Shown here piece by piece: positions 51,945-64,000 of a stretch of 64,000 nucleotides of DNA; within the stretch, counting starts at the first letter, position 1; each line of letters begins with the position of its first letter. The DNA comes from SAR116 cluster bacterium (GTDB lineage Bacteria; Pseudomonadota; Alphaproteobacteria; Puniceispirillales; Puniceispirillaceae): assembly GCA_004212735.1 (NCBI GenBank), contig SHBD01000003.1, positions 62,001-126,000 of the forward strand, written 5' to 3'. The position numbers and the translations under genes are program-made. The notes under the pieces were generated by a model. It did not search any database. It saw nothing but the letters and a program-made list of their open reading frames with translations, and had not been told where the DNA came from.

Positions 51945-52310
51945 ATGCAGCGGATTTCTGAAATAAAGAGACGCGTTATCAACTTGCAGGACGCAGTTTT
52001 TGAGCCATTCGAGGACGAGGTTGGAACAGGTTTGTTGCAACTCAACCCGAACGCGCCACGGGGAACAGGTTTTTACATTTACCGAATGGAACCGGGGGCC
52101 TCCTCATCGCCGCACCGGCATGTTGGAGCGGAGGAGTTCTATATCATCGACGGTGAACTGATTGATAATGATGGCACCATTTATCGTGCGGGTGATGTCG
52201 TCTGGCTGGATGCGGGAACCGAACATAACTCAACCTCACCCGGCGGTTGCACGATTGCTGTGTTCTCTGAAAAAGGCGAAGTGCTACCATCTGCCGCAGA
52301 CAGCGGATGA
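51945..52310 (+). CDS. Cupin-domain protein
   Basis: About 121 residues with one cupin barrel. The conserved first motif is SSSPHRHVGAEEFYIIDGEL (two His and a Glu that may bind a metal), and the second is GDVVWLDAGTEHNS with the last His. The protein is similar to small RmlC-like cupins of unknown substrate. Start ATG 51945 follows GGGGGG; a GTG at 51906 would extend into sequence with no domain. It is the first gene of a rightward run that includes a FolD homologue and a polyamine-catabolism set, separated from FolD by about 146 bp. Function is not known. Confidence 0.82.
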   Translation: MQRISEIKRRVINLQDAVFEPFEDEVGTGLLQLNPNAPRGTGFYIYRMEPGASSSPHRHVGAEEFYIIDGELIDNDGTIYRAGDVVWLDAGTEHNSTSPGGCTIAVFSEKGEVLPSAADSG

Positions 52311-52419
52311 CTCGGCATCCGACTTTACTCGCTTTCGTTAACGGTTAGAGGACACTCAGCTTGCCCAGAAGCCTACTCTGAAGTCTGCCCTAAAATATGT
52401 TAGGGAAAATGCCAGCCCT

Positions 52420-52449
52420 TTCACGAAAAGCCCGTTCACGAAAAGAGAG
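52420..52449 (+). repeat. 15-bp direct repeat before the FolD homologue
   Basis: TTCACGAAAAG occurs at 52420-52430 and 52435-52445, a 15-bp period, with a third TTCAC at 52452 just before the start codon. Confidence 0.8.
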
Positions 52450-52456
52450 TGTTCAC

Positions 52457-53347
52457 ATGACTAAATCTGGTGACCCGCGTCTGCTCTATGGCAAAGATGT
52501 CCGGCAAAGGATCATGGCAGAGGTCAGTAGTGACATTTCCCGCCTGTCACAGCAACGCAAGCTCGGGCGACTCGTGTCTGTTGGTATTGGCAATATCGAC
52601 GAAACATCAGTCTATATTCGGGGCCAAGCTCGTGCCGCGGCAGAAGTCGGCCTGCCCTTTGACGAGCAACGCTGGCCAGCATCTCTGACCCAAGAGGATT
52701 GCAAGCGGCACCTTGTCGAGATGAATGACGATCCTGATGTCATCGGAGTCATTCTCCAGCGCCCTGTTCCCGACCATATTAATGTGCGTTCACTCCAGTC
52801 TGCCATTCATCCGCTAAAGGATGTTGAGGGGATGAGCCCGGCATCGATTGGTAACATCGTCTATAATGATATGGCGCTGGCGCCATGTACGGCAGCTGCC
52901 TCTGTCGAGATGATCAAGGCAACGGGGCTGGATTTGAAAGGGCTTGAGGTGGTGATGGTTGGCCATTCGGAGATTGTCGGCAAACCGGCCGCTTTCATGC
53001 TAATGGCGGAGGGAGCCACGGTAACCGTGTGCCATCATATGACAAGATCGGTTGCCGCGCATACGCGCCGCGCTGATGCGGTGCTTGTGGCCGTCGGGGT
53101 GCCTGGCCTTCTTACCGCCGATATGGTCAAGCCGGGAGCGGCAATCATCGACATCGGCATCAACCAGATTGTTGGCGATGACGGAAAAATCCGCATCGTC
53201 GGTGATGCCGATACGGACAATGTTGCTACGGTTGCCAGCTGGACAACGCCAGTGCCCGGCGGCGTCGGGCCGGTCACGGTCGCCATGTTGATGCGCAATG
53301 CCGCCAGAGCATTGGAAAAGCAAATCAGCCTTGGATGGACGGAGTGA
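52457..53347 (+). CDS. folD: FolD-like methylenetetrahydrofolate dehydrogenase lacking the catalytic lysine
   Basis: 296 residues with the normal FolD layout: an N-terminal catalytic domain and a C-terminal Rossmann-type domain (VVMVGHSEIVGKPAAFMLMAEG, VTVCHHMT, TPVPGGVGPVTVAMLMRN). In the catalytic helix the family has Tyr-x3-Lys; here the segment is SVYIRGQARAAAEVG, so the lysine needed for the cyclohydrolase step is Gln57. KDVDG is KDVEG. Mutation of that lysine in other FolD proteins removes cyclohydrolase but can leave dehydrogenase activity, so this may be a dehydrogenase only or act on another one-carbon carrier. AGAGAG is 8 bases before ATG 52457. It is followed 26 bp later by an amine-oxidase-like flavoprotein. 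Confidence 0.87.
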   Translation: MTKSGDPRLLYGKDVRQRIMAEVSSDISRLSQQRKLGRLVSVGIGNIDETSVYIRGQARAAAEVGLPFDEQRWPASLTQEDCKRHLVEMNDDPDVIGVILQRPVPDHINVRSLQSAIHPLKDVEGMSPASIGNIVYNDMALAPCTAAASVEMIKATGLDLKGLEVVMVGHSEIVGKPAAFMLMAEGATVTVCHHMTRSVAAHTRRADAVLVAVGVPGLLTADMVKPGAAIIDIGINQIVGDDGKIRIVGDADTDNVATVASWTTPVPGGVGPVTVAMLMRNAARALEKQISLGWTE

Positions 53348-53373
53348 TCACTTTGTATCAGGGGGGATGATGG

Positions 53374-54711
53374 ATGCGTGACCAGGACTTTCTTGCGGCT
53401 GATTTCAAGCCTCAACCCTATTGGTGGGATCATGCACCGCCAACCCTGCCCGACAGCGCTGGAGGTGTCTTGCCCAACCGCTGTGATGTTGCGGTGATTG
53501 GTTCAGGATATGCCGGACTTCATGCTGCCATCGTTTTGGCACGCATGGGGGTTGATGTGGTCGTAATTGATGCTGAGGCACTTGGTCATGGGGCCTCATC
53601 GCGCAATGGTGGAATGGTGTCCGGCGGGGTCAATGTTGGCAAACACATTGACCTCGACCCGCTACAGGAACGGGCCATGTTGGCAGAGGCATCGCTTTCC
53701 TACAGTTGGTTTGAGGATTTCATTCAAACCGAAGGGATAGATGCTGATTATCAGCGGACAGGCCGGTTCGTTGGCGCACATTGTTCAAAAGCGTGGCAAA
53801 CCTTGGCCAAGCGGATGGCAAAATTGAATGAGGTTGCAGATTCCTCTGCTTATATGCTGCCAGCGGAACAGACCCGCGAGGAAATAGGGTCTGATTATTA
53901 CAAGGGGGGCATGGTTCTTGAGCGATCAGGCGCGGTTCATCCGGGAAAGCTGCATCGTGGTGTCCTGAATGTCGCGCGCAGTGCGGGTGTGAAGCTTTTT
54001 GGCAATGTTCGTGCTGGTGCCATGGCCAAGAGAGCGGACGGTTTGCGGCTCGAAACAAGCCGTGGTCCGCTAATGGCAGATAAGATCATCATTGCGACCA
54101 ATGGTTATACGGGCGATTTGAGTGCCTGGCACCAAAGGCGCGTTGTTCCGATCGCATCCTATCAGGTGGCAACAGAAGAGCTGGGTAGTGAGATGGTGAC
54201 ACAGCTGTTCCCAAAGCACCGGATGATTGCTGACACCAAGCGGTTGCTTTATTACTTTAGACCGTCACCTGACCGCAAGCGCCTTCTCTTTGGTGGTCGT
54301 GCCCGTTATCTCCATCATGATTCCACTGCGGGGGGATTGCATCTGCGGCGCAAGTTGACAGCTGTTTTTCCGCAGCTTGCCGAAGTCAAGCTGTCACATG
54401 GATGGTGGGGTTACGTTGCCTATCTGCGCGGCGGCGTTCCAGATTTGGGTGAGAGCCAGCCAGAGACGCTTCCGGGCGTGTATCATGCGCTTGGCTGCCA
54501 TGGCAGTGGAGTGGTGATGATGAGTTGGCTTGGTTATCGGACGGGATTGCTTGTCTCGGGTCAGGCAAACAGCCAGAGCGCCTTTTCAGGGGGGCGGATT
54601 GCCCCGTTTCCGCTTTACCAAGAAAAACCCTGGTTTCTGCCGATTATTGGCGCCTACTACCAGCTCCGTGATTGGACGGATCGCCGGCTCGATGGCAAAT
54701 TTTCCAAATAA
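53374..54711 (+). CDS. FAD-dependent oxidoreductase of the DAO family, gamma-glutamylputrescine oxidase-like
   Basis: 445 residues. The FAD motif CDVAVIGSGYAGLHAAIVLARMG (residues about 37-59) is preceded by an N-terminal part YWWDHAPPTLPDSAGG seen in PuuB/OrdL-type enzymes. Later markers are HGASSRNGGMVSGG, where the FAD pyrophosphate binds, IIIATNGYTGDLSAWHQRRVVPI, and the C-terminal GCHGSGVVMMSWLGYRTG. These enzymes oxidise the free amine of gamma-glutamylputrescine or N-methylated amino acids such as sarcosine. Context supports the polyamine reading: a PuuA-like synthetase follows, then an aminotransferase and a polyamine-binding protein, while the FolD homologue just before it fits a demethylating role. 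Confidence 0.85.
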   Translation: MRDQDFLAADFKPQPYWWDHAPPTLPDSAGGVLPNRCDVAVIGSGYAGLHAAIVLARMGVDVVVIDAEALGHGASSRNGGMVSGGVNVGKHIDLDPLQERAMLAEASLSYSWFEDFIQTEGIDADYQRTGRFVGAHCSKAWQTLAKRMAKLNEVADSSAYMLPAEQTREEIGSDYYKGGMVLERSGAVHPGKLHRGVLNVARSAGVKLFGNVRAGAMAKRADGLRLETSRGPLMADKIIIATNGYTGDLSAWHQRRVVPIASYQVATEELGSEMVTQLFPKHRMIADTKRLLYYFRPSPDRKRLLFGGRARYLHHDSTAGGLHLRRKLTAVFPQLAEVKLSHGWWGYVAYLRGGVPDLGESQPETLPGVYHALGCHGSGVVMMSWLGYRTGLLVSGQANSQSAFSGGRIAPFPLYQEKPWFLPIIGAYYQLRDWTDRRLDGKFSK

Positions 54712-54804
54712 TTGTTGGTAATCCCTGCTGACTTGATGTCACGCAGGGCTTGTTTTTGACGGCCACCGGTTGCAGAATTTTGCGGCAATGAGTGAGGATT
54801 GAAG

Positions 54805-56172
54805 ATGGACAAGACAGCCCTGTCCTCCTGGGCAGATTCATGGGCGATAGAACATCCTGACATAGAGAGCCTGCGTGGCTTCATTTTTGATATCAATGGC
54901 GTTATTCGCGGCAAAAGACTGCCGGTAGACCAGCTTGAGAAAATCTGTGGGGGTGGAATGCGTATTCCGCTATCTTCGGCAAATGTTGATATTTGGGGGC
55001 GCGATATCGAGGGTAGCAAATGGGTTTTTGAGACCGGTGACTCAGACGGGCGCTGTGAATGGACTGGCCGCGGCCCCCTTATGATGCCATGGTCTGATCA
55101 CGGCGCAGCCATGGTGCCACTCGTTGTGCAAAATGAGAATAAAACGCCCTTTGACGGTGATCCGCGTAATGCTCTTGCCGCTGTTTTGAAACGTTTCGCC
55201 GCGCTTGGGCTTCGACCGGTGCCAGCCTTTGAGCTGGAATTCTATCTGGCGGACCCAAAGGCGGTTGATGGTGCGCTGAGCAACCCGCTGACCGGGGCAT
55301 CAGTTATCCGTGAAGGGGTGCTATCGCTTGATGACCTAAATGATTTCGATGCGATCCTGACCGATATCTATGCTGGCTGCAAAATCCAATCGGTTGCAGC
55401 CGATGCCGCCATCAGCGAGAGCGGTATTGGGCAGTTCGAAGTCAATCTTCGCCATAGCGAGGATGCGATGAGAGTCGCGGATGATGCGATGCTGTTTAAG
55501 AATATCGTCAAATCTGTCGCCCGCAAACATGGCCTCGCCGCGAGTTTCATGGCCAAACCATTTGCCCAGAGGCCCGGCAGTGGTTTGCATATGCATTTCA
55601 GTATCCTCGATGGTGCTGGCGCAAATATCTTTGATAATGGAGATGCCGATGGCAGTGCCATGCTGCTCCATGCTGTGGCAGGTGTGCTTGCCGCGATGCC
55701 GGAATCGATGCTGTTGTTCGCGCCCCATCTCAATTCCTATCGGCGTTTGACGCCTGATCAGCACGCCCCGATGGTTGCCTGCTGGGGATATGAAAATAGA
55801 ACAGCCGCCGTGCGCATTCCCGGTGGCCCGTCGTCACAGCGCCGTATTGAACATCGTGTCGCTGGTGCTGACACCAATGCCTATCTGGTAATGGCAGCAA
55901 TACTTGGTGCAGCTCTGACTGGGATTGAGGGTGAGATGCAGCCACCAAAAGCAATCAAGACCAGCGCTTATGATGGTGATAATGCACACATGCCGACCCT
56001 GCCGCTCTCGTGGCAGGATTCCTTGGATGCCTTTATGGCAGGGAAAATGCTGAACGATTTTATTCCCGGCATACTGCGTGATATGGTGGTTAAGACGAAA
56101 CAGCAGGAAATGCGGCGGTTCAACGAAATGGTGACGCCGTTTGAATATCAATCATATCTTGATCAGGTGTGA
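54805..56172 (+). CDS. Glutamine synthetase family ligase, gamma-glutamylpolyamine synthetase (PuuA)-like
   Basis: 455 residues. ATP-dependent ligation of glutamate to an amine. The beta-Grasp N domain lacks the usual ammonia-channel features. The catalytic domain has FELEFYL (metal Glu), GSGLHMHFSIL (His), SYRRLTPDQHAP and WGYENRTAAVRIPGGP, and RIEHRVAGADTNAYLVMAAIL. This resembles PuuA/GlnA-like ligases, not GlnA I, which has a longer adenylylation loop. ATG 54805 follows GAGGA at 7 bases; TTG 54799 is an alternative. It is separated from the oxidase by 93 bp and precedes the aminotransferase. It would make a gamma-glutamyl amine for the oxidase. Confidence 0.87.
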   Translation: MDKTALSSWADSWAIEHPDIESLRGFIFDINGVIRGKRLPVDQLEKICGGGMRIPLSSANVDIWGRDIEGSKWVFETGDSDGRCEWTGRGPLMMPWSDHGAAMVPLVVQNENKTPFDGDPRNALAAVLKRFAALGLRPVPAFELEFYLADPKAVDGALSNPLTGASVIREGVLSLDDLNDFDAILTDIYAGCKIQSVAADAAISESGIGQFEVNLRHSEDAMRVADDAMLFKNIVKSVARKHGLAASFMAKPFAQRPGSGLHMHFSILDGAGANIFDNGDADGSAMLLHAVAGVLAAMPESMLLFAPHLNSYRRLTPDQHAPMVACWGYENRTAAVRIPGGPSSQRRIEHRVAGADTNAYLVMAAILGAALTGIEGEMQPPKAIKTSAYDGDNAHMPTLPLSWQDSLDAFMAGKMLNDFIPGILRDMVVKTKQQEMRRFNEMVTPFEYQSYLDQV

Positions 56173-56175
56173 TTG

Positions 56176-56205
56176 AGCGTTCTTGGATCAGACGTTCTTG
56201 GATTT
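56176..56205 (+). repeat. 15-bp direct repeat between the PuuA-like ligase and the aminotransferase
   Basis: CGTTCTTGGAT occurs at 56178-56188 and 56193-56203, giving a 15-bp tandem duplication with two or three changes, just after the ligase stop at 56172. Confidence 0.8.
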
Positions 56206-56231
56206 AACCGGGGCAATATTGGAGCCAAATT

Positions 56232-57611
56232 GTGACAAAGCTGAATTCGCCTTCGCCTGAAGATATTCGCCTCTGGGATAACCGGAATTTGATGCACCCC
56301 TGGCATTCGCTGGGAACTGAGGACGCCGACTTCATGATCGCCTCAGATGCTGAGGGAATCTATGTTTATGATGAGTCCGGACGGCGCTATATTGATGGGC
56401 CTGGCGGAATGTGGAGTTCGCAGATTGGCTATGGGCGGCAGGAAATGGCCGATGCAATTGCTGCGCAGGTTCTCAAGTTACCCTTCAACACACCCTGGAC
56501 CTCGACGTCGGGGCCGGCGGCACAGCTTGCGGCAAAAATTGCCGCTGAGTCGCCCGGCGACCTGAACAATGTGTTCTTTACCACTGGCGGTTCAACTGCG
56601 GTGGATACGGCTTTGCGTTTTTCCCATTTTTATAACAATCTGCGTGGCCGACCTGAAAAGAAGCACATCATCGCCCGCCAAAAGGGCTATCACGGCTCAA
56701 CATTTATGTCGGCCAGTGTTTCGGGCAAGGAACGCGACAAGAGTTTCCTCGATACCGATACCGACAGCGTACATTTCGTTGGCAACGTGAATCCCTATAT
56801 CCGACCTGACGGCATGAGTGTTGCTGCCTGGTGCGACGAGAAAACGACTGAATTGGAGGCAAAGATTCTTGAAGTGGGTGCCGACCGTGTGGCCGCCTTC
56901 ATTGCTGAGCCGATCCTTGCATCTGGCGGTGTGATTGTGCCGCCGGAGGGGTATCACAAGCGCTGTCTGGAAATCTGTCACCAGCATGATGTGCTGTATA
57001 TTTCGGATGAGGTGGTCACCGCTTTTGGCCGTTTGGGTGAATTTTTTGCCTCGGAGAGTGTGTTCGGCATCGTGCCCGATATTATTACCTCGGCGAAGGG
57101 CATTACCTCAGGCTATGTGCCGTTGGGCGCTGTGTTGATCTCAGACCGTTTGATGGCTGAACTCACCGCAGATGACCGCTCAGAGGTGTTGTTCTCGAAT
57201 GGCTTCACCTATTCTGCGCATCCTGTTTCCTGCGCAGCGGCGTTGAAGAATATCGAGATTATGGAGCGGGAAGAAATCTTTGCCCATGTGAATGCTATCA
57301 CACCCCATTTTCAAGCACGTCTGCAGGAATTGCGGCGTCACGAAATTGTTGGTGATGCCCGGGGAATGGGTCTGCTTGGTTGTGTTGAGGGTGCGGCGCC
57401 ATCAGATAGCAGTGAGGCGAAAAGGTTGGCAGTCGATAAGGAGTTTGGTTACCGGCTGGACGCCAAATGCGAGGAGAGGGGGCTGTTGCTGCGCCCGTTG
57501 ATCAATATGTGCGTTTTCTCACCGCCATTGATCATCAGCCGGGACGAGGTCGATATGATGTTTGACATCATTGATCAGGCGCTTGGCGAGGTGAATGCAG
57601 AAATGTGCTGA
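56232..57611 (+). CDS. Class III aminotransferase, polyamine / omega-amino acid type
   Basis: 459 residues. PLP binding is at FFTTGGSTAVDTALRF and ISDEVVTAFGRLGEF, and the Schiff-base lysine is in SAKGITSGYVPLGAV. The early MHPWHSLGTEDADFMI and the PWTSTSG pocket resemble putrescine or omega-amino acid pyruvate aminotransferases (SpuC-like). In the cluster it would transaminate a polyamine, or the aminobutyraldehyde-derived amino acid, using pyruvate. It starts at GTG with GGAG 7 bases upstream. It precedes the binding-protein gene by 128 bp. It differs from the tpa gene by lacking the HWMPFT start. Confidence 0.88.
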   Translation: MTKLNSPSPEDIRLWDNRNLMHPWHSLGTEDADFMIASDAEGIYVYDESGRRYIDGPGGMWSSQIGYGRQEMADAIAAQVLKLPFNTPWTSTSGPAAQLAAKIAAESPGDLNNVFFTTGGSTAVDTALRFSHFYNNLRGRPEKKHIIARQKGYHGSTFMSASVSGKERDKSFLDTDTDSVHFVGNVNPYIRPDGMSVAAWCDEKTTELEAKILEVGADRVAAFIAEPILASGGVIVPPEGYHKRCLEICHQHDVLYISDEVVTAFGRLGEFFASESVFGIVPDIITSAKGITSGYVPLGAVLISDRLMAELTADDRSEVLFSNGFTYSAHPVSCAAALKNIEIMEREEIFAHVNAITPHFQARLQELRRHEIVGDARGMGLLGCVEGAAPSDSSEAKRLAVDKEFGYRLDAKCEERGLLLRPLINMCVFSPPLIISRDEVDMMFDIIDQALGEVNAEMC

Positions 57612-57739
57612 AAATCTTTGTGATCCATGCAAAATATTGACTTCTGGCACTAAGCATCGCCATAGTTGAGAGCTGTAAAACGAGATGACGCCTTCCTCTG
57701 TTGAATGAGAGGCGTCGCCAACAAAAGGGGAGCGTTATC

Positions 57740-58795
57740 ATGAAAGCCACCGGAATTATCTCTGCTTTGACGGTTGCGACCATACTCACGGGTGGGGCCG
57801 CTGTTGCTGCAGACAAGGATCTTATTATTTTTGACTGGGCTGGGTATGAGGACAATAATTTCTATTTGAGTTATGTTGAAAAACATGGTGATCAGCCGAC
57901 CTACTCTTTCTTCAGTGATGAAGAAGAGGCGTTCAACAAGATTCGCGCCGGCTTCAAAGCCGATATGGCCCATCCATGCTCGCAGTCTGTGATCAAATGG
58001 CGTGAGGCGGGAATCATCGAACCGTTCGATACATCCCGCATTCCCAACTGGAAAGACATCAGCTTTGCCGATGCAGAGGGCTTTACCGTCAACGGTGACG
58101 TTTATGTTGTTCCGGTCGATTGGGGTTCAACAGGCTTGACCTATCGGACGGATCTTGTAAGTGCCGATGACGCCGCAACGCTGCAATCTTTCGCTGATCC
58201 GAAATTTCAGGGCCGGATCTCACTGCCTGACAATGTAGATGACGCCTACGCACTTGGCTATCTGGCCAATGGCGTTCGGGACTGGAACAAAGGAACCGAC
58301 GCAGACTTTGAAGCGGCGTCTGAATTTCTGCGTAAAGTCCATGCCAATGTCCGCACTTATTGGGCCGATGGTGCCGAGCTAAGCCAGTTGATGGCCTCGG
58401 GTGAGGTGTTGCTGTCATGGGCATGGAGTGAGACGCCAGTAACCATGCAGGCAGAAGGCCATCCCGTTGAGATGAATTTGAAGACCAAGGAGGGTTCATC
58501 TACCTGGGTTTGTGGCTATGTGAATATGGTCGATGGTCCAGGGTCTGAGGATAAGATGTATGATTTCATCAATGCTTGGCTCGAGCCAAGATCAGCTGAG
58601 TACATTGTAACTGAGTGGGGCTATGGCCACTCAAATCTTGATGCGATGCTGTCATTGGGCCAAGACGCGCTTGATGAAGTTGGTTTCTCAAACTTTGAGA
58701 CCTATACCGACAACACATTGCAGCAGGCACCGCTGCCCTTTGAGTTGCGCGAGCGGATGATCGCCGAGTTTGAAAAGATTAAGGCTGGCTTCTAG
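57740..58795 (+). CDS. potD: Polyamine-type ABC transporter substrate-binding protein
   Basis: Periplasmic receptor of the PotD/PotF family, 351 residues. Signal peptide about 1-24 (ALTVATILTGGAAVAAD). Mature features: LIIFDWAGYEDNNFYLSY, IPVDWGSTGL-type hinge (VVPVDWGSTGLTYRTDLV), and WAWSETPVTMQAEGHPVEM. Ligand may be putrescine, spermidine or a methylated analogue. ATG 57740 follows AAGGGGAG. Its partner permeases and ATPase (potB, potC, potA) lie on the opposite strand and converge on it, so the receptor is transcribed with the catabolic enzymes, not with its transporter. A strong hairpin separates the two operons. Confidence 0.87.
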   Translation: MKATGIISALTVATILTGGAAVAADKDLIIFDWAGYEDNNFYLSYVEKHGDQPTYSFFSDEEEAFNKIRAGFKADMAHPCSQSVIKWREAGIIEPFDTSRIPNWKDISFADAEGFTVNGDVYVVPVDWGSTGLTYRTDLVSADDAATLQSFADPKFQGRISLPDNVDDAYALGYLANGVRDWNKGTDADFEAASEFLRKVHANVRTYWADGAELSQLMASGEVLLSWAWSETPVTMQAEGHPVEMNLKTKEGSSTWVCGYVNMVDGPGSEDKMYDFINAWLEPRSAEYIVTEWGYGHSNLDAMLSLGQDALDEVGFSNFETYTDNTLQQAPLPFELRERMIAEFEKIKAGF

Positions 58796-58844
58796 GCATT
58801 AGTCTCATCAGGGGGGCAGGCGAACCTGTCCTGAAAGAATGCCG

Positions 58845-58876
58845 AAAGCCGCTGTTCCTAAAGGAATGGCGGTTTT
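58845..58876. terminator. Bidirectional terminator between potD and potA
   Basis: CCGC, TG, TTCC, a TAAA loop, GGAA, TG and GCGG followed by TTTT form a hairpin with one internal TG/TG mismatch, 50-80 bp after potD and just before the potA stop. Confidence 0.7.
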
Positions 58877-58892
58877 CCTATTTCTGGGAGTG

Positions 58893-59999
58893 TCAATCCT
58901 CAGCCAGAATAGTGATTGACTCGGCGCCCCATCCAACGCGTGTGGCATCTCCTTGGTCAAGGATTGGCCTCCCGGCCGTGTTGCGCATGGAAACCGTTGC
59001 CGTGATATCTGAATTTTCGAGGCGAACATCATAATAGGTCATATCGCCGTAATAGGCTGTGTCCTCTATGATGGCGTTGAAAACATGGTCCGCTTTATCT
59101 GTCTTGTCATAGAGAACAGTCAGCATCTCCGGACGAATGCCGATTGTGATCTTGTCGCCGGTTCTATGTGCTGCTGATTGTGGCAGTTCGATCTTGCCAA
59201 GCGCGTCGATATCGAGAGACAGCGTCTGCGCGGTGCTGGCGGTCACTGTCGCGGGGATGAAGTTCATCACTCCGATAAAGGAGGCAACCCGCTGTGAGGT
59301 TGGGCGACGATATAGCCCTTCAGGCGAGTCCAACTGGGCAATCTTGCCATCAAACATTACGGCGATACGGTCTGACATGATCAACGCTTCTTCCTGATCA
59401 TGAGTTACAAGAACAAAGGTGATGCCGACAGTCCGCTGCAATTTGCATAACTCGCTCTGCATCGCATCCCGCAGCTTTTTGTCCAAAGCTGACAAGGGCT
59501 CATCAAGCAACAATACCTGTGGTTTCATGATAAGGGCGCGGGCCAGAGCAACGCGCTGGCGCTGTCCACCAGACAGGGCATGTGACTCCCTCTGGCCGTA
59601 GCCTTCGAGGTCCACCAGCGCAAGTGCCTCATTGACACGGAGGTCCACTTCTTCCTTTGGCAATTTCTGTTTTTTTAGACCATAGCCAACATTTTCGGCC
59701 ACGTTTAGATGGGGAAAGATCGCATAGGATTGAAAAACCATATTGGTTGGACGCTCGTTCGGTGGCACATCAGTCATATCCGTTCCCCCGATAAAAACTG
59801 TGCCAACACTCGGATTGTCAAAGCCCGATATCATTCGCAGCAAAGTTGTCTTGCCGCAGCCCGAGGGGCCGAGAAGGGAAAAAAATTCACCGGCCCTGAT
59901 TTCGAGCGATATACCATCAAGCGCGGTGACGGAGCCAAAATGTTTCTCAATGTCATTGATGACGATAATCGGCTCTTCTGTTTTTTGGTCTCTGGCCAT
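58893..59999 (-). CDS. potA: Polyamine-type ABC transporter ATP-binding protein
   Basis: 368 residues: ABC ATPase domain plus a C-terminal TOBE domain. Walker A GPSGCGKTTLLRMISGF, Q loop FQSYAIFPHLNV, signature ALSGGQRQRVALARAL, Walker B VLLLDEPLSALDKKL, switch His in VTHDQEEALIMSDRI. The TOBE part starts near residue 245. Energises uptake by PotBC. Its start overlaps the potC stop by one base (TAA/ATG at 59999), so it is the last gene of a leftward operon that begins with the Rieske oxygenase. Confidence 0.93.
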   Translation of the reverse strand: MARDQKTEEPIIVINDIEKHFGSVTALDGISLEIRAGEFFSLLGPSGCGKTTLLRMISGFDNPSVGTVFIGGTDMTDVPPNERPTNMVFQSYAIFPHLNVAENVGYGLKKQKLPKEEVDLRVNEALALVDLEGYGQRESHALSGGQRQRVALARALIMKPQVLLLDEPLSALDKKLRDAMQSELCKLQRTVGITFVLVTHDQEEALIMSDRIAVMFDGKIAQLDSPEGLYRRPTSQRVASFIGVMNFIPATVTASTAQTLSLDIDALGKIELPQSAAHRTGDKITIGIRPEMLTVLYDKTDKADHVFNAIIEDTAYYGDMTYYDVRLENSDITATVSMRNTAGRPILDQGDATRVGWGAESITILAED

Positions 60000-60820
60000 T
60001 AGAAAATGCTTTCGTCGGAGGATTGTGGGTTGCCGGCGATCCGGTTTGCACGCCGGCGGAAATATTCAGCAGCCAGCAGCAGAATGAAAGATAGCAAGAC
60101 CATCAGGAAACCAAGGGCCATGATAGCCGGCAGTCTGGCTGGAAAGCGCAGCTGGCTCCAGATATAGACGGGCAATGTTGCATCGGTGCCGGTCAGAAAG
60201 AAGGCGATGATGAATTCATCGAGGGAGATGGTAAATGAGATCAGCAGGCTGGATATGATGCCCGGAGTGACAAGGGGCAAAATTACCCGGAAAAAGGTAC
60301 CAATCTTGTTCTCGCCCAAATCCATTGACGCTTCCTCCAGACTGCGATCCATGTTGTTGAAAGCAGACTGTAGAATGGCGATGGCAAAGGGTGTGCAGAT
60401 CAGTACATGGCCAATTATCACCGTCCAAGCAGATAATGACAGGCCGAGTTGGATAAGCACAACAATCAAAGCCACACCGACAATGATTTCCGGCAGCACA
60501 AGCGGCACCATGATGAAGCCAACAATGCCACGCTTTCCCGGGAACTCATATCTGGCTGCAGCGCGGGCCGCAAAAATACCCAGCGTTGTGCTGCCAATTG
60601 CCGTGACGACAGCAATCAGCAATGAGTTGTAGAGCGCCTCATGGAGAGCTTTTGTTTCCCACAACAGGCCGAACCAGTGGAAGGTAAAACCCGAGAGCGG
60701 CAGCGCGATAATGGCGCTGTCATTGAACGCAAACAACGGTAGCAGAAGGACCGGTGCATAAAGGAAAATGAGATAAATGACCGCATATGTGAACAGACTT
60801 CTTGGAGGTTTTGCTGACAT
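59999..60820 (-). CDS. potC: Polyamine-type ABC transporter permease (PotC-like)
   Basis: 273 residues, six membrane helices. The EAA loop is in NNMDRSLEEASMDLGENKIGTFFRVILPLVTPG. It pairs with PotB to form the channel. ATG 60820 is used because AGAGGA lies 8 bases upstream; a GTG at 60823 would add one residue. It begins 13 bp after the potB stop. Confidence 0.92.
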   Translation of the reverse strand: MSAKPPRSLFTYAVIYLIFLYAPVLLLPLFAFNDSAIIALPLSGFTFHWFGLLWETKALHEALYNSLLIAVVTAIGSTTLGIFAARAAARYEFPGKRGIVGFIMVPLVLPEIIVGVALIVVLIQLGLSLSAWTVIIGHVLICTPFAIAILQSAFNNMDRSLEEASMDLGENKIGTFFRVILPLVTPGIISSLLISFTISLDEFIIAFFLTGTDATLPVYIWSQLRFPARLPAIMALGFLMVLLSFILLLAAEYFRRRANRIAGNPQSSDESIF

Positions 60821-60832
60821 CACTCTGATCCT

Positions 60833-61756
60833 CTAGCCTTTCACCTTCAGGAAGCGGCGATTGAACAAAACGAAGGCGATCGATATCGAGGCCACGACAA
60901 TCATTGCTGAAACAGCAAGCGCTGATCCGAGGGGCGCGTTATTGGCTTTGCCAAACTGGATCTGGATCATATTCGCAATCATCAGACCGTTTGTGCCACC
61001 AAGCAGGCGGGGTGTCACGTAATCGCCCACGGTTGGGATGAAAACGATCAGCGAGGCGGCCACGACGCCCGGCATGGATAGTGGCAGTGTGACCCTCAGA
61101 AACCGTCTTATCGGGCCATCGCCAAGATCACGCGCAGCTTCGAGCAGACTCTTATCTATGCGGGCCAGTGAGACAAAAATTGGCAGGATGGCAAATGGCG
61201 CCCACGCATGAGCCAAGGTGATCACTACCGCGTTGGCATTATAGAGAATGAAGCTGAGCGGCTCCTCAATAAAGCCAAGGCCGAGGAGGCTGCCATTGAC
61301 GACACCGTTATAGCCGAGAATAACTTTCCACAGGAAAACCCTGATCAGGTAGCTGGTCCAAAATGGAATGGTGATCAGCAACAACCACATCGATTTTCGT
61401 TTGCCGCCAAAAAAAGCCACGTAATAGGCAATTGGATAGGCCAGCATAACTGTAACAACGGTTACCACGCCGGAAATCACCAATGAGCGAACCATCAAGA
61501 CCCGATAGAGCTCCTCTGATATCGCTTCTCTGTAGTTGGCCAACGTGACGGTGCGGTCAAGCTCAAGATAATTTTGTGTCCACATGCTGAGCAGGAACAC
61601 AAGCAACAAGGGTGCTGCCAGCATTAAAAGTGAATAAACAAAGGGTGGACTGATCAATGCAAGCCCGTGCCATCCGCCTGGTCGCATTACTGGCAGAAAA
61701 TGGGGCTTTTGCCATATCTTTGCGCGACCTTTCCCCGCCAGGCTTTCCTGTTGCAT
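60833..61756 (-). CDS. potB: Polyamine-type ABC transporter permease (PotB-like)
   Basis: 307 residues with six membrane helices. It has a short polar N-terminal part of about 30 residues before the first helix. The EAA loop is ARIDKSLLEAARDLGDGPIRRFLRVTLPLSMPG. The start codon directly abuts the stop of the Rieske oxygenase gene (no bases between), so the two are translationally linked; this is the best evidence that the oxygenase acts on the imported compound. Confidence 0.92.
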   Translation of the reverse strand: MQQESLAGKGRAKIWQKPHFLPVMRPGGWHGLALISPPFVYSLLMLAAPLLLVFLLSMWTQNYLELDRTVTLANYREAISEELYRVLMVRSLVISGVVTVVTVMLAYPIAYYVAFFGGKRKSMWLLLITIPFWTSYLIRVFLWKVILGYNGVVNGSLLGLGFIEEPLSFILYNANAVVITLAHAWAPFAILPIFVSLARIDKSLLEAARDLGDGPIRRFLRVTLPLSMPGVVAASLIVFIPTVGDYVTPRLLGGTNGLMIANMIQIQFGKANNAPLGSALAVSAMIVVASISIAFVLFNRRFLKVKG

Positions 61757-62965
61757 CTAGAGACCTTTCAACGCTGCGTTCCGCGCTGCCAGCGTTCCCA
61801 GTTCCGGTGATTGTTGTAGTGACAGAACCGGCATCAGGCCACGCAGATGGTCGTGGAAACTGCTGACACCATACTCCAGATCCGAGAGAATGATGCCGTC
61901 AAAACCACTCGACAGTGGGGCCTCATCTGTCCAACGCGTAAGCTGCAAATCCTCATCTGCCGTCAGCCCATCAATGCGTCCAGACAGATATCTGGCTGCC
62001 CGCATGGTGCGTGTTTCGCCGCGATGTCGATAGACAGCGCCGCGCTGAAGGGTGTGTTTTGTGCCTATAGGCACTTCCTGATAGAAAATGATTGAGTCAG
62101 GATAGAGGCCAATCACCGCATTTGGGAAAATGCCGAGATAAAGCCACGCAGCATTCAGCGGTTCCGGTAAATGGGTGAATCGGGAGACAAGTTCACGATA
62201 GGCCTTCACACTCCAAAGTTTGGAAGGTGAGCTGTTAAATTTTCCAAGGCTACGCGATGTGCCGTTTATGTAGGGCTCATCAATATAGGCCTTTCCATAA
62301 AGATCCTGCAGGCTGGGATGGGCCTTGGCAACATGATAGCCCTCATTGTCAACATCCCGCATCGACTTCCAGTTTACCTGCGCCTCGGCAAAAATGAAAT
62401 CACCGGCAACACGCTCCATATCGGCAATGTTGTAGGGCGCGACCTCACTATCAAATCGCTGCAACATCTCGGCAACACTGCCCTGTGAGCCGGGCTGAAA
62501 CCGGATGAAAATAAACCCATTCCAAATCTCGAGTTCAACTGGTTTCAATCCCCATTCCATAGGGTCCAACTCTGGAAAGGTTGAGGGCTGTGCCGCGCTT
62601 CTCAGGGTGCCATCCAGATTGTAGGTCCAGCCATGAAAAGGGCATGTCAGCGCGGATTTGCAGACGCCCCGTTCATTATCAACCACACGGCTGCCCCGGT
62701 GACGGCAAAGGTTGTGAAAGGCGCGAATCTTTCCTGCCTTGTCACGAAGGATCAATGCTCGCTCATATCCCATGTCAAAGGTGATGTAGGCTCCGGGTTC
62801 GGCAAGGTCGCTTATATGGCAGGCAAGTTGCCAATGTGCACGAAAAACAACATCCTGTTCCAACGCGAAAAGCTCATCATTGCTATAGGCCCAGCCAGGC
62901 AGGCCCTTCCTGTCCCAAGTGCCGGGAATTTTGTTTTGCGAGTATGATAAAGACAAATCACCCAC
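61757..62965 (-). CDS. Rieske-type non-haem iron oxygenase, alpha subunit
   Basis: 402 residues. The Rieske [2Fe-2S] ligands are in NLCRHRGSRVV and LTCPFHGWTYNLDG (Cys-His and Cys-His pairs). The mononuclear iron site follows in DVDNEGYHVAKAHP (Asn/Glu and two His). Members include aromatic ring dioxygenases and quaternary-amine demethylases (glycine betaine, stachydrine, carnitine oxygenases). Being directly joined to potBCA, and next to a polyamine-catabolism set with a FolD homologue, it may demethylate or hydroxylate an imported amine. No reductase gene is adjacent. The GTG at 62965 is the only start near the expected N terminus. Confidence 0.87.
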   Translation of the reverse strand: MGDLSLSYSQNKIPGTWDRKGLPGWAYSNDELFALEQDVVFRAHWQLACHISDLAEPGAYITFDMGYERALILRDKAGKIRAFHNLCRHRGSRVVDNERGVCKSALTCPFHGWTYNLDGTLRSAAQPSTFPELDPMEWGLKPVELEIWNGFIFIRFQPGSQGSVAEMLQRFDSEVAPYNIADMERVAGDFIFAEAQVNWKSMRDVDNEGYHVAKAHPSLQDLYGKAYIDEPYINGTSRSLGKFNSSPSKLWSVKAYRELVSRFTHLPEPLNAAWLYLGIFPNAVIGLYPDSIIFYQEVPIGTKHTLQRGAVYRHRGETRTMRAARYLSGRIDGLTADEDLQLTRWTDEAPLSSGFDGIILSDLEYGVSSFHDHLRGLMPVLSLQQSPELGTLAARNAALKGL

Positions 62966-63082: not shown

Positions 63083-64000
63083 TTATCTATCGGGATTGGC
63101 GTTGCGCCTGAACCATGAAACCAGCAGATAAAAAATACCAACACTGACCATGAAAATCGGCAGGCCTAGCCGCATGTTGATGTCTAGTAAAATTCCGGCA
63201 ATTGCGGGCCCGGCCAGATTGGACAACTCGAAAATAATCACAAAGCCAGCATTAGCTGCGATGATTTCACCACCAGTAAACCGTTTTGCCAGCATCGCAA
63301 GGCCAATTGAATAAAGGCCATAGACGAGCCCCGCTCCGAGAAAAGCCAGAATCAGCGCCAGAAGGGCCGAATGCAGGAAGAACGGGATCAGACTACAGAG
63401 CGCAAGACCAATGGTGGCGATGATCATGCCAATTCTTCGCAGGCCATACCGATCCGCCAGAAGGGCAATCGGATATTGCAGGACAACGTTACCGACCGCC
63501 ATGGCCGGCACAATTGACAAGGTGAGCATTGTGGCTGCCTCAGGTGTTCGCGCAACAATCACAGGCATCAAGGTGATCAGCGCGAGATCGACACCGCCGG
63601 CAACGACGCAGGCCATGGCAACAGTTGGTGCCCGGCGGATCAGCCGAAGGGGTGAGCCACCTCCAGTGAAAGTGATTTTGGGTTCATGCCGTCGCAGCGC
63701 ATAGATTGGCAGAGCGCCGATCACCGGCAAAATGGCAATAAGGAAGAAAGGAGTGGCTGTTTCAAATCCGAACAACCAGATAATCCCGGGACCGACCGCA
63801 AATCCTAGTCCGACTGCCGTTGCATAGATTGCCATAACCCGGGTGCGTCCCTGATCAGCGGCAATTCGTGCAAGCCACGCTTCGGTTAACACCCAATGCA
63901 GCCCCAAGCCAAGACCGCCGATGAAACGAATGACGAGCCAGAGCGCCATTGACTCGGTAAAGCGCAGGGCCACCATCATCACTGCTGCCAGACACAGGCC
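63083..64000 (-). CDS. MFS transporter, N-terminal end beyond the window
   Basis: About 305 residues of a major facilitator family protein; the frame is open to the right edge, so helices 1-2 are missing. Visible helices carry RFIGGLGLGLHWVLTEAWLARIA, ATAVGLGFAVGPGIIWLFGF, and in the second half NVVLQYPIALLADRYGLRRIGMIIATIG, the loop 2-3/8-9 motif. YcaD-like and drug or sugar exporters are of this kind. Substrate is unknown. It follows the Rieske gene on the same strand at about 118 bp, upstream of it. Confidence 0.85.
   Translation of the reverse strand, partial: GLCLAAVMMVALRFTESMALWLVIRFIGGLGLGLHWVLTEAWLARIAADQGRTRVMAIYATAVGLGFAVGPGIIWLFGFETATPFFLIAILPVIGALPIYALRRHEPKITFTGGGSPLRLIRRAPTVAMACVVAGGVDLALITLMPVIVARTPEAATMLTLSIVPAMAVGNVVLQYPIALLADRYGLRRIGMIIATIGLALCSLIPFFLHSALLALILAFLGAGLVYGLYSIGLAMLAKRFTGGEIIAANAGFVIIFELSNLAGPAIAGILLDINMRLGLPIFMVSVGIFYLLVSWFRRNANPDR

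Follow-up and report, generated by a model that had tools for sequence, protein, structure and literature searches.

The 64,000-nucleotide stretch analysed here (the window; contig SHBD01000003.1 of a SAR116 cluster alphaproteobacterium) carries, at 51945-62965, ten genes in two converging runs, in which a Rieske oxygenase and a Pot-type transporter meet a binding protein and enzymes of amine metabolism. With moderate confidence, we hold that this locus is a pair of catabolic operons for an N-methylated cationic amine, which would be taken up, stepwise N-demethylated and then transaminated, with a core conserved in Alphaproteobacteria. Judged by comparison with relatives, the ten genes consist of this widely conserved core and a lineage-specific add-on, because the core recurs in a sample of 80 loci and the FolD and DAO genes do not. 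The features are as follows.

51945 to 52310, plus strand: cupin (ChrR cupin-like), accessory; PF12973, 54.9 bits.
52457 to 53347, plus strand: FolD2, a FolD paralogue; both THF_DHG_CYH Pfam domains.
53374 to 54711, plus strand: DAO-family FAD oxidase/dehydrogenase, distant from PuuB; PF01266, 190 bits.
54799 to 56172, plus strand: glutamine-synthetase-like ligase, probably forming a gamma-glutamyl amine; PF00120 (Gln-synt_C), 309 bits.
56232 to 57611, plus strand: class III aminotransferase (PRK07036 family), core gene; Aminotran_3, 656 bits, above the cut-off of 618.
57740 to 58795, plus strand: periplasmic binding protein of the PotD fold whose pocket has diverged, core gene; SBP_bac_8, fold match to PotD1/PotD.
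58844 to 58877, no strand: hairpin between the convergent operons; -24.4 kcal/mol, z -6.5.
58893 to 59999, minus strand: potA-like ATPase, core gene; Pfam ABC ATPase.
59999 to 60823, minus strand: potC-like permease, core gene; Pfam permease.
60833 to 61756, minus strand: potB-like permease, core gene; Pfam permease.
61757 to 62965, minus strand: Rieske oxygenase alpha subunit of a Group-V-like lineage; Pfam Rieske and Ring_hydroxyl_A.

Each of the ten genes is an open reading frame, with the place, order and strand given in an earlier note on this DNA, and the Pfam assignments agree. The contact that the note had described between the oxygenase stop and the potB start is confirmed: the minus strand reads ...GGT CTC TAG ATG..., where the potB ATG (61754-61756) follows the Rieske stop (61757-61759) without a gap. 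From comparison with relatives, the true starts of three genes probably lie later than the first start codon, at about 52457 for FolD2, at about 57740 for the binding protein and at 51945, the start already chosen in the note, for the cupin. Since both gene runs converge on a strong hairpin, this is a possible shared terminator of the two operons. The genome (2.49 Mb in 66 contigs) is 96% complete.

The gene-neighbourhood survey that the earlier note had called for indicates that the core, defined as the Rieske oxygenase, potBCA, the binding protein and the class III aminotransferase, recurs well beyond the window. One scan of genome contigs confirmed at least 567 Rieske loci, of which 80 with distinct proteins were kept (58 with both full 10-kb flanks, the remainder cut by contig ends), and a gene was counted as present from 45% identity upwards. 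By this measure, potB was found in 56 of the 80 loci, potC and potA in 53 each, the aminotransferase in 61 and the binding protein in 43; potABC occurred together in 52, with the binding protein in 43, and with the aminotransferase as well, which is the whole core, in 42. The cupin was found in 5 loci, and in Planktomarina and HTCC2150 relatives of it stand next to the Rieske gene. The glutamine-synthetase-like ligase was found in 1 locus (4 of 80 in all), DAO in 0 of 80 (3 weaker matches), and FolD gave no match in the 80 loci (tblastn at E 1e-8 with 35% or more of the query covered). Within the window's order, the Rieske gene was detected at E 1e-40 or better in 20 of 136 genomes, its own included. 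For the genus of the window itself, DAO and the ligase do occur together with the Rieske gene, and three same-genus genomes carry the order cupin-DAO-ligase-aminotransferase-receptor-potACB-Rieske without FolD2. The gene set also occurs in three annotated plasmid records (Parasedimentitalea, Shinella and Fuscovulum). In one family of the window's order (loci L121-L125) an MmgE/PrpD-type gene adjoins the Rieske gene.

To what stands around the core elsewhere, 28 extended loci bear witness, with genomes chosen for spread and up to 20 kb fetched on one side (L053 left out); genes were labelled by blastp against representatives at thresholds that differ per gene. As a hand-picked sample of related genomes, these loci give a description and no independent test. 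A tetrahydrofolate-binding aminomethyltransferase (AMT, GCV_T), with at least 40% identity to the L020 copy, was present in 16 of the 28 (L178 being the label source) and in 3 of 3 plasmid loci, and genome density (296 GCV_T genes in about 93.5 Mb of 19 genomes) would lead one to expect 1.7 genes in the 541 kb of the 28 loci. A CrtO-like FAD protein (at least 55%, often paired) and a BetI-like TetR regulator (at least 35%) were each found in 16, a methyltransferase (at least 45%) in 12 and an OYE-type oxidoreductase (at least 45%) in 5, one locus being the label source in each of the last two cases; a second Rieske protein (at least 40%) was found in 3 and a glutamine-synthetase-like protein (at least 30%) in 2, and blastp found DAO and FolD at 30% or more in 0 of 28. 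In the 80 loci, many of which end inside the FAD genes, profiles built from the same loci match GCV_T in 21, the OYE type in 8 and the CrtO-like protein in 26. Domain checks of representatives returned GCV_T for AMT, Oxidored_FMN for the OYE type, and a DAO+FAO_M+GCV_T+GCV_T_C fusion for a dimethylglycine dehydrogenase (DMGDH)-like protein. Against the trimethylamine N-oxide (TMAO) demethylase model the AMT representative reached 256.6 bits in the C-terminal part, below the whole-protein cut-off of 1100, and one regulator representative passed the BetI model NF001978 (126 bits, cut-off 118) and did not pass TIGR03384 (124 bits, cut-off 201). In another family of the window's order (L120, L127 and L128), AMT (38-42%) and an FAD pair stand beside the same Rieske gene, potABC and binding protein, and L120 also carries an OYE-type gene there. 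OYE-type enzymes act as amine demethylases in other pathways. Taken together, the AMT, DMGDH-like, OYE-type and BetI-like genes of the orthologous loci support the idea of N-demethylation. In this reading the window's lineage has swapped the AMT/FAD/OYE side for DAO, the ligase and, in this genome, FolD2; none of the genome's GCV_T matches falls inside the window. The genome as a whole has 19 GCV_T domain matches in 2.5 Mb, 16 of them over the family cut-off, which suggests broad use of methylated amines.

The oxygenase itself was compared with proteins of known structure. The family profile placed stachydrine demethylase (two entries), 3n0q and CntA (two entries) as the top five in the PDB (E 5e-57 to 2e-53), followed by the next match at 3e-36, and aromatic oxygenases scored far lower. 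In a fold search with the AlphaFold model (mean pLDDT 89.6), the 18 best matches, all at 2.5e-21 or better, were CntA, stachydrine demethylase and 3n0q. The best NCBIfam match was GbcA, whose 141 bits lie far below the cut-off of 670. These comparisons support the view that the protein is nearest to the quaternary-ammonium (Group V) oxygenases and not to the aromatic ones. The residues of the CxH...CxxH motif and the 2-His-1-Asp triad (C87, H89, C108, H111, H211, H216 and D339, the last taken as the third iron ligand by alignment with CntA and Stc2) are each kept in 80 of 80 distinct proteins, and so is the bridging Glu (E208, equivalent to CntA E205), where aromatic-type HcaE has Asp instead. 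That the enzyme acts on an aromatic amine or N-heterocycle, with the aminotransferase taking the ring-opened product, would be in keeping with the many Rieske enzymes that act on aromatics; homarine- and trigonelline-like N-methyl pyridinium acids, possible substrates of this kind, are themselves N-methylated cations. The bridging Glu and the low rank of aromatic oxygenases in the profile search speak against it, and among the scanned neighbour representatives there was no ring-cleavage or beta-subunit protein, although no search was aimed at them. An aromatic substrate is thus unlikely from the profile search, the fold search and the bridging Glu, and to this reading we give the least credence of the three alternatives weighed here.

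According to one study, Group V is split by residue 203, with Tyr or Phe in Va and Asn in Vb (PMC7948474), and another describes a Cys-X-X-Cys pair in some members (PMC10952381). The present family has neither Tyr/Phe nor Asn: Asp206 occupies CntA position 203 in 80 of 80 proteins, with an ungapped alignment around it, and Gly209 and Val212 stand in place of the Cys pair in 80 of 80. E. coli YeaW has Tyr, Glu, Cys and Cys at the compared positions. By its defining residues, therefore, the family is close to Group V, and its membership is putative. A second possibility is that the enzyme cleaves the C-N bond, as CntA does on carnitine, and releases trimethylamine or dimethylamine and no formaldehyde, so that the locus would handle the carbon skeleton. 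CntA is the best fold match and, when the window protein is used as a single query, also the first PDB match (2e-29, with stachydrine demethylase next at 6e-29); moreover, the second Rieske protein shows the CntA pattern of Tyr at 203 plus the Cys pair in all three loci examined (L019, L029 and L082). Against this, the family profile puts the demethylase Stc2 first, the family itself lacks Tyr or Phe at 203, and the AMT, DMGDH-like and OYE-type genes of the orthologous loci point to demethylation. C-N cleavage is on balance rather unlikely. The second, different Rieske gene lies inside the module of some roseobacters (L019:13983-15197, L165:16023-17240 and L167:10859-11995). A reductase beside another Rieske gene of the window's genome (L002) was considered and rejected, its two neighbours being a 2OG-Fe(II) oxygenase and a protein without Pfam match.

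The model of the receptor (mean pLDDT 86.1) has the PotD/PotF fold, the best matches being Vibrio PotD1 (VcPotD1, E 4.6e-24) and E. coli PotD (1pot, TM 0.78/0.87). W34, Y37, W229, W255 and Y293 in PotD numbering, which we take to be the aromatic box of PotD, are kept in 21 of 21 receptor orthologues. D168, E171 and D257 are presumably the acidic ligand contacts of PotD. D168 is replaced by Asn in 20 of the 21 orthologues and by Ser in 1, and D257 by Cys in all 21, so that two acidic contacts are lost; E171 has become Asp, and Y85 Gln, in 21 of 21. Since the pocket is nearly invariant across the 21 orthologues, they probably share a ligand.

A further alternative is ordinary putrescine or spermidine catabolism with an unrelated Rieske gene alongside. 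The window ligase is 34% identical to PuuA (270 bits) and the window DAO 30% to E. coli PuuB (153 bits), the latter having the L-pipecolate oxidase AmaA as its best NCBIfam match (144.5 bits, cut-off 600). Against the gamma-glutamylputrescine synthetase model NF045547 the ligase reached 202 bits, short of the cut-off of 650; this failure alone is not decisive, because the relative of the neighbouring-set ligase in L006 fails too (218 bits). Past the end of the window (L129:5087-11597) come an agmatinase, a second DAO (38% identical to PuuB, 298 bits), a second aminotransferase and a second glutamine-synthetase-like ligase (35% to PuuA, 228 bits). A PuuB/PuuA-like set thus adjoins the window, and the window oxidase is the more diverged of the two, but the window ligase stands no further from PuuA than the second ligase does. 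An MFS gene from 63083 runs over the window end (63083-64000). An ordinary polyamine route could claim the PotD-fold receptor, the PotABC-like transporter, the glutamine-synthetase-like and DAO proteins, the agmatinase beside the locus and the higher PuuA score of the window ligase. It is at odds with the joint occurrence of the Rieske gene and potABC in 52 of the 80 loci, across many genera, with the separate set and its closer PuuB relative next door, and with the loss of D168 and D257 from the receptor, and we regard it as quite improbable. The earlier note had remarked that a simple putrescine route needs neither oxygenase nor FolD, and plain putrescine is indeed the less likely substrate, because of the PuuB/PuuA-like set next door and a receptor without two of PotD's acidic residues. 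Gamma-glutamylation looks like an accessory of the window's lineage.

In FolD2 the catalytic Lys of YxxxK is replaced by Gln and the second Asp of KDVDG by Glu in 35 of 35 aligned copies across Alphaproteobacteria, so that the two residues that mark a bifunctional FolD, the catalytic Lys and the pterin-binding Asp, are both missing. Ordinary FolD proteins keep Lys and Asp (all 7 in the order alignment and both ordinary copies among the class sequences), and an ordinary FolD is present elsewhere in the window's genome. Within the order, 16 of 136 genomes carry the FolD2 family, at 17 places in total, and all 16 copies aligned (L149 was left out) have both substitutions. In the class it was found in 22 of 386 sampled genomes, and each of the 19 new loci has these two changes. 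The copies outside the window (loci L131-L146 and L197-L215) sometimes stand beside ordinary FolD. The human residues are given as Lys56 (catalytic) and Asp125 (pterin-binding) (PMC3368264). Mutant data are mixed: for the silkworm enzyme K53A kept both activities, and D120A had no measurable dehydrogenase activity with methylene-tetrahydrofolate (PMC6443876); the D120A change was to Ala, whereas FolD2 has Glu. In view of the silkworm K53A enzyme (PMC6443876), the Lys-to-Gln change is not claimed as proof of a lost cyclohydrolase.

The neighbours of FolD2 likewise lead away from the Rieske gene. Of the 16 other loci of the order, 8 have a DAO gene (59-66%) next to FolD2, and the stretches fetched for these show no Rieske gene; 6 of the 8 have potA/B/C matches, and in the other two the contig ends. 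A ninth locus, L155, has a different DAO-family protein nearby. FolD2 adjoins ordinary FolD in 6 other loci of the order (5 genomes), preceded by Fhs in L160, the locus tested. In L160:1814-11253 FolD2 is clustered with a Ring_hydroxyl_A protein, LysR, TauE-type proteins, a PanB-like hydroxymethyltransferase, Fhs and ordinary FolD; gene order is similar in L159, L161 and L162 (domains were tested in L160 and for one TauE in L159). Outside the order no single theme was seen, Fhs and a molybdopterin oxidoreductase each occurring once among eight tested neighbours. FolD2 therefore accompanies either the DAO side or other genes of one-carbon metabolism and not the Rieske gene, and FolD and DAO form a module separable from the Rieske core. 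The earlier note had passed formaldehyde from the oxygenase to tetrahydrofolate and FolD. This link to the Rieske enzyme is not supported, with the catalytic residues replaced, 0 of 80 loci carrying FolD and the gene absent at the same locus of three same-genus genomes; FolD as a general formaldehyde sink of the Rieske enzyme was rejected on the last two grounds. Since the catalytic Lys and the pterin-binding Asp are replaced, formaldehyde uptake of the ordinary FolD kind cannot be assumed.

The gene set, its conservation, the family assignments and the residue patterns are observed, and from them we infer the reactions, their order and the substrate as follows. The PotD-like receptor and PotABC would import the amine. 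The Rieske enzyme, with electrons from an unlinked reductase, would oxidise an N-methyl carbon, and the resulting hemiaminal would fall apart into formaldehyde and the demethylated amine. The remaining N-methyl amine would be demethylated or oxidised by DAO here, and elsewhere by AMT, the FAD proteins and the OYE-type enzyme. In the window's lineage the free amine may then be gamma-glutamylated by the ligase; the last amine would be removed by the aminotransferase, and the one-carbon units would pass into tetrahydrofolate metabolism, where FolD2 would take part in this genome. The substrate may be an N-methylated polyamine, a betaine or another compound. The interpretation offered in the earlier note is thus partly supported: oxygenase N-demethylation gains from Group V as the nearest relatives and from the demethylation-type genes of orthologous loci, and for gamma-glutamylation a ligase is indeed present, as an apparent lineage accessory found in 1 of 80 loci.

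Several observations weigh against this pathway. Reasoning from Group V is loose, because Asp occupies position 203 and there is no Cys pair, and the fold search sets Group V apart from other Rieske enzymes by a small margin (2.5e-21 versus 5e-20 for salicylate 5-hydroxylase). No member of the family with known function occurs in the material examined. No reductase is linked to the Rieske gene, the genome's one PF00175 match being a 324-residue candidate elsewhere, at L216:1150-2124. The receptor's fold matches include opine receptors and SAR11 PotD with gamma-aminobutyric acid (GABA); proteins of the PotD fold thus bind these ligands as well, and fold alone names no ligand. The window ligase scores higher against PuuA than its neighbour (270 versus 228 bits), and may have a putrescine-like role. 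Next to this Rieske gene, neither DAO (at 45% or more) nor FolD2 occurs in any examined locus from outside the window's genus, and the steps given to these two therefore rest on a lineage-specific add-on. Finally, 12 of the 28 extended loci have no AMT at the threshold used, the transporter side of some lying outside the fetched stretch.

If the pathway is true, many marine and plant-associated alphaproteobacteria share one route for a methylated amine, a concrete gene set can be named behind some of the flux of dissolved organic nitrogen and methyl carbon, and the amine-acting Rieske oxygenases gain a new substrate and active-site type; receptor, oxygenase and regulator would each be directly assayable. 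FolD2 would matter separately for one-carbon metabolism. More tentatively, and with more doubt than confidence, we propose that Rieske proteins with the motif RDVDNEGYHV form a third amine-oxidising clade, in which Asp in place of an aromatic residue or Asn would hold the protonated or methylated ammonium; this clade would head an undescribed pathway of 10-13 genes for one widely used methylated amine in SAR116, roseobacters and rhizobia, with FolD2 as an altered one-carbon enzyme beside it in some SAR116.

Titles, term counts and abstract openings of the open-licence PMC literature gave no description of the gene set, which is weak evidence, and the word Rieske occurs in neither of two SAR11 papers on polyamine and one-carbon genes (PMC8437039, PMC3160333). 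Among known systems, the Puu pathway shares with the window a glutamine-synthetase-like ligase (34% to PuuA), a DAO oxidase (30% to PuuB) and a PotD-type importer. It differs in that no PuuC- or PuuD-type gene is among the window's ten, that a closer PuuB relative (38%) lies next door and that the window ligase is far below the cut-off for gamma-glutamylputrescine synthetase. GCV_T proteins of the kind of the TMAO demethylase C-terminal domain and of dimethylglycine dehydrogenase occur in the orthologous loci, whereas the window has no GCV_T match. CntA/YeaW (Group Va) is the best fold match, at 24% identity and with the bridging Glu in common, but the window family is without Tyr203, the Cys206/Cys209 pair and a linked reductase. 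Stc2/GbcA (Group Vb) likewise has a Rieske alpha subunit with the bridging Glu, and Stc2 is the best PDB profile match. Unlike these enzymes, the window family has Asp for Asn at 203 and no Cys pair, and its Rieske gene stands beside a Pot-type transporter and a class III aminotransferase.

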